Source: a virus. Taken from it: 21,024 nucleotides of DNA. The notes beneath the pieces are model-generated. The model was not told where the DNA came from. It worked only from the letters and a program-made list of their open reading frames with translations, and made no database searches. Where the stretch lies: positions 1 through 21,024 of the IMG/VR virus record IMGVR_UViG_3300044621_002150. One strand, written 5' to 3'. The position numbers and the translations under genes were made by a program. This document shows positions 9,030 through 11,135 of the stretch, piece by piece. Within the stretch, counting starts at the first letter, position 1. Each line of letters opens with the position of its first letter.

Positions 9030-11135
9030 ATGTCTGATAAACATTATATGGGTAATCCGCTCTTAAAAAGAGCGAATGTTGCCAATGAGTTTTCTCAAGA
9101 ACAATTATTTGAATTAGCAAAATGTGCGGTTGATCCAGTTTATTTTGCCAAAAATTATATAAAAATTGTTAACGTTGATGATGGCCTTGTACCATTTGAT
9201 ATGTGGCCTTTTCAAGAAAAGATGCTCAGAACTTTTCATGAGAACCGTTTTACCATTTGTAAACTACCTAGACAACCATTAGAAAATAATACCCCAATTC
9301 CAACACCAAATGGTTATACCAAAATTAAGGACCTAAAAATAGGGGATGTTGTTTATGATCTAAGTGGAAATAAAACAAAAGTATTAAACAAAGTAAGTTA
9401 TAAAAACACAGAAAAGTGCTATAAATTATCCTTTAAAGGTCAACATTTTGAGGAAGATATTGTTTGTGACAAGGATCATTTCTGGCGAGTTTATATAAAT
9501 GAAAAACCAATTGTATTAACTGCTGAGCAGATTTCTTGTATTAAAGAAAAAATCACTCTACAAAGAACAAAATTTAATACATTAGTAAATAATTGGAATG
9601 AAAATATTGAATTAAAATCAATAAAAGAAGTTAAACCAACTAGTGTTTCCTGTATTGAAGTAGAAAATAAAGACCACTCTTTTTTATGTGGAAAGAATTT
9701 TATTCCAACTATTAATTCTGGGAAAAGTACTACTAGCGTTTCTTTCCTACTTCATTATGCTATTTTTAATGAAAAAGTATCCATAGCCATTCTTGCAAAC
9801 AAAGCATCATCAGCAAAGGATATTCTCTCTAGGCTTCAAGTATCATTTGAAAATTTACCAAACTGGATGCAACCTGGAGTTAAGTCCTGGAATAAAACAT
9901 CATTGGAATTAGATAATGGTTCTAAGATCATCACAGCCTCTACCTCAGCATCATCGGTTCGTGGTGGTTCTTATAATATTATTTTTCTAGACGAATTTGC
10001 TTTCGTTCCAAATAATATAGCTGTCAATTTTATGAATTCCGTATATCCTACTATTTCTTCTGGTAAAGAAACTAAAGTTATCATATGCAGCACTCCCCAG
10101 GGATTAAATTATTTCTATAAAATGTGGGATGAGGCAATAAAAAAATTAAACGATTATGTTCCTCTTGAAATTAATTGGAATGATGTTCCTGGAAGAGATG
10201 AAAAATGGAAAATAAAAACCATCGCAAACTTGGGTGGTGGAGAAGTAGGGGCAAGAGCCTTTGATCAAGAATTTTCATGTTCTTTCCTGGGATCATCAAA
10301 TACCCTCGTTTCAGCATCAAAACTGTCATCAATGACTCATAAATCCCCAATAAGATCTAAAAAAGGTCTGGATATTTATGAAGATCCCATAGAAGGCCAT
10401 CAATATATGATTAATGTTGACGTAGCAAGAGGAGTTGATCTTGATTATTCTGTATTTACAGTTATTGACATAACGAAAATGTCTTATAAATTAGTAGCAA
10501 AATATAGAGACAATCAAATTAAACCAATTATGTTTCCATATATCATTAAAGATGCTGGTTTACATTATAATAAGGCATTTGTACTTTGTGAAACAAATGA
10601 TGTGGGTGATCAGATCGCAACTGGACTTCATTATGATCTTGAGTATCCAAATCTATTGACTTGTTTTATTAAAGGAAGAAAGGGACAGGTTTTGGGGCAG
10701 GGATTTGGTGGAGACAGAGTTGATTATGGTGTAAAAATGTCCGCTAATGTGAAGAAAATCGGATCTCTCAATTTAAAAATGTTACTTGAATCAGATAAAT
10801 TAATCATTGAAGATTATGACACGATCAGCGAACTCTTCACCTTTGTCCAAAAATCAAATACCTTTAAGGCCGAAGAAGGGAAAAATGACGACTTGGTTGA
10901 TTGTCTTGTTACTTTTTCCTGGGCTTCCACCCAAGAATACTTCCGAGAAATCACTGATGACGATATAAGAAAAAGATTATTTAAAGAAAATGAAGAGCGT
11001 GAAGAAGATGACAGTATTTTACCAATAGGTTTTATAGAAACCGGAATAGAGCCCGAGACCTTTGTTGAAAAAGATTTACTCTGGAATGTAGTTTCTCCGG
11101 ATGAACTTGTTTCTTTGTGGGATTATAGTTATTAA
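9030..11135 (+). CDS. 17: Large terminase gp17 precursor, interrupted by an intein
   Basis: A 701-residue precursor of the DNA-packaging motor, an ATPase plus a nuclease that cuts headful DNA. Extein motifs are all present. An adenine-binding region (FDMWPFQEKML, residues 56-66) precedes RQ at 81-82. After a 147-residue insert, SGKST at 230-234 completes Walker A. Walker B is IIFLDEFAF with Asp321 and Glu322, and the coupling motif is CSTPQG (353-358). The RNase H-fold nuclease has Asp464 (INVDVARG), Glu521 (VLCETND) and Asp620/621 (KNDDLVD). The Asp464-Glu521 spacing of 57 equals that of T4 Asp401-Glu458. Without the insert the protein is 554 residues, typical of cyanophage gp17. An upstream C-rich Shine-Dalgarno is lacking; the start lies nine bases after the preceding stop. 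Confidence 0.95.
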   Translation: MSDKHYMGNPLLKRANVANEFSQEQLFELAKCAVDPVYFAKNYIKIVNVDDGLVPFDMWPFQEKMLRTFHENRFTICKLPRQPLENNTPIPTPNGYTKIKDLKIGDVVYDLSGNKTKVLNKVSYKNTEKCYKLSFKGQHFEEDIVCDKDHFWRVYINEKPIVLTAEQISCIKEKITLQRTKFNTLVNNWNENIELKSIKEVKPTSVSCIEVENKDHSFLCGKNFIPTINSGKSTTSVSFLLHYAIFNEKVSIAILANKASSAKDILSRLQVSFENLPNWMQPGVKSWNKTSLELDNGSKIITASTSASSVRGGSYNIIFLDEFAFVPNNIAVNFMNSVYPTISSGKETKVIICSTPQGLNYFYKMWDEAIKKLNDYVPLEINWNDVPGRDEKWKIKTIANLGGGEVGARAFDQEFSCSFLGSSNTLVSASKLSSMTHKSPIRSKKGLDIYEDPIEGHQYMINVDVARGVDLDYSVFTVIDITKMSYKLVAKYRDNQIKPIMFPYIIKDAGLHYNKAFVLCETNDVGDQIATGLHYDLEYPNLLTCFIKGRKGQVLGQGFGGDRVDYGVKMSANVKKIGSLNLKMLLESDKLIIEDYDTISELFTFVQKSNTFKAEEGKNDDLVDCLVTFSWASTQEYFREITDDDIRKRLFKENEEREEDDSILPIGFIETGIEPETFVEKDLLWNVVSPDELVSLWDYSY
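9276..9716 (+). other. Class 3-type mini-intein in the Walker A motif of gp17
   Basis: Residues 83-229 of the precursor (147 residues) sit between extein Gln82 and Ser230. Splicing blocks are visible. Block A is PLENNTPIPTPNGYTKIKDL, with Thr6 and Ile8 as usual and KIGDVVYD following. Block B is IVCDKDHFWRV, with His68 at B:10 and Trp70 at B:12. Block F is VSCIEVENKDHSF, with Cys126 at F:4. Block G is FIPTIN followed by extein Ser, with Thr145 at G:5 and terminal Asn147. Trp/Cys/Thr at B:12, F:4 and G:5 is the signature of class 3 inteins, in which the block F Cys replaces the N-terminal nucleophile; Pro1 here fits that. There is no LAGLIDADG or HNH segment, so it is a mini-intein without homing endonuclease. 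The 3' half is very AT-rich (12/60 GC at 9541-9600). Confidence 0.9.

Follow-up and report, generated by a model that had tools for sequence, protein, structure and literature searches.

The gp17-like large terminase of a T4-type phage, encoded on a stretch of virus DNA of 21,024 bases (the window, meaning the whole stretch that was analysed), carries in its P-loop an insert that we regard, with a probability of about 0.9, as a class 3 intein without a homing endonuclease domain, whose proposed splicing would restore a 554-residue terminase. The original prediction had read this insert as a class 3 mini-intein, and that reading is supported by sequence, predicted fold, catalytic residues, empty alleles in relatives, and selection. 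It is of interest because it adds to a presumably essential phage motor a class 3 lineage distinct from the others, whose C-terminal catalytic residues are unusual in that the penultimate His is missing.

The gene order of the window resembles a T4-type structural block and consists of connector proteins, tail sheath stabiliser, small terminase, an unknown protein, gp17, tail sheath, tail tube, and portal. In tblastn searches, the nearest named relative of the window gp17 is that of Synechococcus phage B23 (67% identity), followed by other cyanophages at about 58%, and the window phage is therefore likely a cyanophage. The insert corresponds to gp17 residues 83-229 (441 nt, 147 aa) and splits the Walker A motif exactly between RQ and SGKST. 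Its terminal residues (P, N) differ from the adjacent extein residues (S, Q), so the junction is unambiguous. The G+C content is 26.5% in the insert and 34.0% in the exteins. The coordinates, length, and flanks first given for the insert, along with W70, C126, T145, and N147, are all correct in the sequence, and the spliced product of 554 aa from the 701-aa precursor is computed from these coordinates. The features are as follows, with row counts referring to an alignment of 46 inteins described below.

9030..11135 (stop included), plus strand: gp17-like terminase large subunit precursor, 701 aa; open reading frame with Terminase_6N and Terminase_6C, tblastn to cyanophage gp17
9030..9275, plus strand: N-extein, 82 aa, C-terminal LPRQ; aligned with intein-free gp17
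9276..9716, plus strand: putative class 3 mini-intein, 147 aa, without homing endonuclease domain; phmmer, Foldseek/VIA, AF2, empty alleles, G+C
9276..9278, plus strand: Pro1, N-junction without nucleophile; Pro in 5/5 complete mini-inteins
9417..9419, plus strand: Cys48; aligns with the redox-partner Cys48 of M. smegmatis DnaBi1
9468..9485, plus strand: block B core with Asp65, His68 (DxxH), and Trp70 (B:12); His and Trp in 46/46 rows, Asp65 in 35/46
9651..9653, plus strand: Cys126, block F position 4, expected branch-point nucleophile; 46/46 rows, aligned to the block F Cys of MchDnaB1
9708..9716, plus strand: Thr145 (G:5), Ile146 (penultimate, normally His), and Asn147 (cyclising Asn); Thr and Asn in 46/46 rows
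9717..11132, plus strand: C-extein, 472 aa, starting SGKST with Ser+1 (Cys+1 in relatives L017-L022)

Sequence, predicted fold, and catalytic residues

Profile searches and structure prediction, two checks proposed with the original prediction, gave a divided outcome: a Hint fold was predicted, but matches to the curated Pfam and NCBIfam models are weak and below cut-off (Hint_2, E 0.0057; TIGR01445, E 0.025). When solved proteins were searched with phmmer, the top five matches were all inteins. These are the class 3 DnaB1 intein of M. chimaera (6rix, E 1.2e-10; also 6riy) and the class 3 DnaBi1 intein of M. smegmatis (6bs8, 2.8e-10), followed by gp41-1 as a WCT-grafted variant (6riz) and as the wild type (6qaz, E 1.1e-4). 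The best AF2 model of the window intein, built from 11 sequences, has a pLDDT of 87.7, with the five models spanning 46.8-87.7. With this model, Foldseek placed chains of three class 3 DnaB intein entries at ranks 1-7 (E 1.2e-9), and VIA-align gave Z 20.9 to 6rix (1.9 A over 130 residues) and Z 20.6 to 6bs8. Lower scores were obtained for Prp8, the next family (Z 18.6), for gp41-1 (17.2), and for the class 3 split intein AceL NrdHF (6zgq, 16.2). The AF2 model and VIA-align thus place the window intein in the Hint fold expected of class 3; the fold alone cannot settle the class, because AceL NrdHF is itself class 3 and scores below several other inteins such as Prp8. No Pfam match to a LAGLIDADG or HNH domain was found in the 147-aa window intein or in the mini-inteins of L017 and L021.

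The residues were compared in an alignment of 46 inteins comprising five complete mini-inteins, 27 gp17 inteins inserted right after the Walker A Lys, between GK and S/T (GK-site inteins), and 14 others including the two solved ones, from both of which residue 1 is absent. His68, Trp70, Cys126, Thr145, and Asn147 are invariant in all 46. The window intein has no Cys or Ser at residue 1, and it combines Cys at F:4 with Trp at B:12 and Thr at G:5 (the WCT triplet), the block B His, a terminal Asn, and Ser+1, as is characteristic of class 3. In each of the five complete mini-inteins, no stop codon interrupts the frame of the insert and the catalytic residues are retained. The Cys48 position is occupied by Cys in 35 of the 46 inteins (5/5 mini-inteins, 20/27 GK-site inteins, and 10/14 others).

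Two further positions set the mini-inteins apart to different degrees. Among the aligned rows, Pro1 is confined to the mini-inteins, but Pro also starts four of the GK-site inteins at the best 80 loci of an IMG/VR scan (Ala 70, Ser 4, Pro 4, Met 2), and the view of Pro1 as a unique oddity was dropped. The penultimate His, which is usual though not class-defining, is replaced by Ile in the window and by Met in L017, L019, L020, and L021, while it is present in 41/41 non-mini aligned rows and in 80/80 GK-site inteins at the same best loci. Within the compared set, Pro1 thus has precedent and the missing penultimate His has none. Given this absence, Asn cyclisation could be slow in the mini-inteins.

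The same residues bear on whether the insert might be a class 1 or class 2 intein, in which the +1 residue (class 2) or another residue would attack the N-junction directly and Cys126 would not be the branch point. Class 2 inteins likewise have no nucleophile at residue 1, and block F position 4 is Cys in some class 1 inteins. Class 1 is nevertheless excluded by definition, since residue 1 is Pro and neither Cys nor Ser; the WCT triplet is complete, and the class 3 DnaB inteins outscore the class 1 gp41-1 both in phmmer bits (45 vs 25.7) and in fold comparison (Z 20.9 vs 17.2). We therefore consider a class 1 or 2 mechanism hardly credible and retain the class 3 assignment.

Alleles of the Walker A motif in related phages

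The Walker A motif was read in cyanophage-like gp17 genes from the best 80 loci of one scan, of which 74 were readable and six unread. It is uninterrupted in 73 of the 74 (RQ, then T, S, or C, then GKST), and the remaining gene, L045, carries the same element. The close relatives L031 and L046, with C-exteins 79% and 76% identical to that of the window, respectively, have an empty site with the motif RQCGKST. The alignment to intein-free homologues that had been suggested as a check thus found the insert absent from 73/74 readable genes, including L046, and from L031. On these empty alleles and the predicted fold, an ordinary terminase domain was rejected. Such a structural domain of this terminase branch, retained in the mature protein, would agree with an insert that is in frame and under selection; it would, however, leave the Walker A loop broken, and it is at odds with the 73 of 74 cyanophage-like genes and L031 that do without it and with an intein's predicted fold and active site. 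Its probability is practically nil, and the insert is treated below as an intein.

At the insertion site, residue +1 is Thr, Ser, or Cys, each a usable nucleophile, in 73/73 intein-free genes read among the best 80 loci. This does not extend to every gp17. The same residue is Val, Ala, Leu, or Gln in six of the best 80 genes bearing a GK-site intein, Met in phage RaK2, and Leu in phage ECD7. The proposal that a usable nucleophile is always present at the RQ site was accordingly dropped, since only some gp17 genes have a site compatible with splicing.

The first scan for relatives returned 15 loci, and the mini-intein is present in 13 of them (L011-L023), of which L022 and L023 are cut by contig ends; L024 and L025 hold other inteins. 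The mini-bearing relatives are metagenomic contigs. The mini-inteins of L011-L016 match that of the window at 98% identity or more, and these six loci may represent one phage population. Five of the 13 loci (L017, L018, L019, L020, and L022) are tandem alleles in which the mini-intein, the three residues CGK, a 327-residue class 3 intein, and STT follow one another in a single open frame. The second intein of L020 matches LAGLIDADG_3 (E 1.8e-7). Four of the five tandem loci (L017, L018, L019, and L022) have a third intein of 439 residues in the STPNG motif of gp17, which is class 1-like, with Cys1, a terminal Gln, and Thr+1; in L019 it shows a splicing-domain match just under cut-off and a LAGLIDADG match. 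L021 has the mini-intein alone with Cys+1, and B23, L162, and L163 have a GK-site intein only. Near relatives therefore hold empty, mini, GK-site-only, tandem, and triple alleles.

An endonuclease-bearing intein at the RQ site was found in none of the 13 mini loci read, a count outside which 15 weaker loci (L125-L139) stand. One scan of GTDB genome contigs for the mini-intein in bacteria and archaea confirmed 0 of 77 pattern matches. The tandem arrangement poses a chemical question, namely, whether two class 3 inteins can excise around a three-residue extein. In the open-access literature searched, we found no description of such tandem alleles. The predicted structure of the tandem L020 precursor has a mean pLDDT of 43.8 and was set aside as evidence.

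Neighbouring and previously described inteins

Class 3 inteins at the GK site are frequent in T4-like environmental phages. In the IMG/VR scan, 354 of 390 pattern matches encode a relative of the query, and all of the best 80 loci have full-length class 3 inteins immediately behind the Walker A Lys; the flanks of those inspected are mostly gp17-like. The WCT triplet is present in 80/80 of these, a count made by simple pattern matching close to the ends and over residues 50-85 and not from a full alignment. Among named phages, B23, RaK2, and ECD7 have a class 3 intein right after GK in a T4-type gp17, and that of cyanophage B23 is full-length, lies between GK and T three residues past the mini-intein site, and is annotated only as 'terminase'. 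Hint/LAGLIDADG inserts in the RaK2 and K64-1 terminases are already in print (PMC5259590). The original prediction had known of no described example in a cyanomyovirus-like gp17; that statement is qualified by B23 and the common GK-site inteins, and what is new is the lineage at the RQ site.

The GK-site inteins (B23, RaK2, fENko-Kae01, ECD7, and the best 80 IMG/VR loci) resemble the mini-intein in residing in the Walker A motif of a T4-type gp17 and in having WCT and a terminal Asn. They differ in being inserted three residues downstream, in a length of about 320-340 aa where measured, in a mostly Ala residue 1, in the penultimate His, in the presence of an endonuclease domain (LAGLIDADG match in L020) that the mini-inteins lack, and in forming a separate branch of the tree. 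The window intein, inserted three residues earlier between RQ and SGK, is not one of them.

The M. smegmatis DnaBi1 (6bs8) and M. chimaera DnaB1 (6rix) inteins are class 3 like the window mini-intein, with chains of 139 and 145 aa, respectively, and share its fold, catalytic set, and Cys48. According to PMC6195587, DnaBi1 also has no endonuclease and also resides in a P-loop. Unlike the window intein, both have DnaB helicase as the host protein and keep the penultimate His, and identity is about 27%; DnaBi1, as described, has Ala1 in place of Pro1. Among the mycobacteriophage terminase inteins TerL1-a to -e, -a and -b are in the P-loop and the other three, -c, -d, and -e, are assigned to class 3, but they belong to the Terminase_1 family and are inserted at other positions, with -a separating the invariant Lys from Thr and -b lying one residue away (PMC5050341). 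All five terminase inteins tested in that study spliced. AceL-TerL and GOS-TerL are also metagenomic terminase inteins, but are split, class 1, and start with Cys1 or Ser1 (PMC11766414). Two inteins in one ATPase gene are likewise reported for Haloferax, where MCM-a occupies Walker A and MCM-d a position along the DNA channel (PMC10643990), so that separate motifs are occupied, unlike the gp17 tandems, in which a single Walker A motif holds both inteins at a distance of three residues. Already known, then, are terminase P-loop inteins and class 3 terminase inteins, both from what PMC5050341 reports, as well as class 3 inteins in T4-type gp17. What appears to be new, as read from sequence, is a distinct class 3 lineage that lacks an endonuclease, is inserted three residues before the common GK site, and has a changed C-terminal catalytic residue and tandem alleles.

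Small class 3 inteins of such size are of interest as ligation tools.

Selection, origin, and the proposed splicing route

The mini-inteins of the window and L020 share 73% protein identity, and their third-position identity of 0.585 is close to the 0.575 expected at synonymous saturation. The protein is thus conserved despite saturated synonymous sites, which indicates purifying selection; for six pairs among L017, L019, L020, and L021, dN/dS is 0.105-0.24 at dS 0.12-0.45. As gp17 is expected to be essential in T4-type phages, an insert in its P-loop that does not splice should be lost. The insert could nonetheless be a degenerate class 3 intein that does not splice or only cleaves at its junctions, with gp17 working as fragments or the phage defective. 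The change of the penultimate His to Ile or Met in all mini-inteins compared and the weak scores with curated intein models speak for this; purifying selection at saturated synonymous sites and the kept catalytic residues speak against it. In addition, several inteins without the conserved His are reported to splice (PMC7664689), and the class 3 intein AceL NrdHF is described as splicing well although its C1:6 His is missing (PMC7891396). Degeneration is accordingly very improbable, and a splicing class 3 intein is the reading that we pursue.

Splicing by the following route is proposed here by homology to MchDnaB1 and M. smegmatis DnaBi1. The Hint domain would fold after translation of the gp17 precursor, and Cys126, activated by His68 and Thr145, would attack the bond between Gln and Pro1 and take over the N-extein as a thioester. 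The N-extein would then pass from Cys126 to Ser+1, cyclisation of Asn147 would release the intein, and an acyl shift would yield the continuous 554-residue terminase with RQSGKST. This class 3 route of block F Cys attack, transfer, and Asn cyclisation is described in PMC6195587 and PMC5050341. Before splicing, the ATP-binding loop is broken and the motor should be inactive. The precursor should fail as an ATPase because the insertion splits the P-loop; a P-loop intein in RadA is reported to disrupt ATPase function (PMC6195587). By this analogy, it is reasonable to suppose that packaging depends on splicing. In M. smegmatis DnaBi1, Cys48, called non-conserved in the same source, forms an inhibitory disulfide with the catalytic Cys118 (PMC6195587). 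The counterparts of this pair, Cys48 and Cys126, are both present in the window intein, so a redox gate on gp17 splicing is possible.

The history of the mini-intein was traced by third-position identity. Between L020 and L019 it is 0.86 in the mini-intein and 0.85 in the second intein, 0.78/0.77 in the flanks, and 0.57 (saturated) in the far C-extein, a pattern compatible with joint transfer of both inteins. L031, which has no intein, resembles L020 to about the same degree in these flanks (0.74/0.78). Much of the pattern is therefore explained by ordinary recombination in the first gp17 half, and given this flank similarity endonuclease-driven co-homing was not upheld as proven. In L029, a longer locus of L023 on the same contig, the last 32 codons of the mini-intein are nearest the window's (0.78 vs 0.66-0.72 to others) and the end of gp17 is L020-like (0.92-0.96), which makes this gp17 a mosaic. 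The mosaic, together with L020 and L019, whose inteins are alike and flanks less so, shows recombination of gp17 with inteins on board. Since it has no endonuclease of its own, the mini-intein is probably maintained by inheritance and by recombination in the first gp17 half, in some phages along with the endonuclease-bearing class 3 intein downstream.

In the tree, the mini-inteins group together on a long branch with full support (ultrafast bootstrap 100), and they fall outside the clade of GK-site inteins (78). An origin in which the neighbouring GK-site intein was duplicated within Walker A and the copy then lost its endonuclease would fit two inteins lying three codons apart with 42-44% identity over aligned columns, and a tree with the mini-inteins sister to their neighbours in the tandems narrowly escapes rejection (p-AU 0.0503). 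The best tree, however, sets them apart from the GK-site clade, and we consider this origin unlikely. Speculative, and less likely than not, is a joint reading in which the mini-intein is a passenger lineage that moves between phages when an empty gp17 is cut by the endonuclease of the downstream intein and both inteins are copied in during repair. The two Hint domains, with CGK between them, would then have to splice twice in one ATP-binding loop, and the splicing step at Cys48/Cys126 could delay packaging while the photosynthetic host is oxidised.

Other intein-like genes were seen in these phages. A replicative helicase frame of the DnaB type in the phage record of L020 (L239:1895-3211, minus strand) ends in an intein-like N-terminal fragment with sub-threshold Pfam scores. 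The C-terminal part is absent, and the arrangement resembles a split intein or a helicase gene that has been fractured. A nicotinamide phosphoribosyltransferase-like protein of 787 aa in the L016 phage record (L237:400-2760, minus strand) has an internal intein-like stretch, also sub-threshold in Pfam. The late sigma factor of phage B23 (L240:1482-2996, plus strand; PHROG late sigma transcription factor) contains a weak intein-like stretch of about 250 residues. The L015 phage record encodes a ThyX-type thymidylate synthase (L238:1267-2994, plus strand) with an intein splicing domain above the Pfam cut-off and an HNH endonuclease domain.
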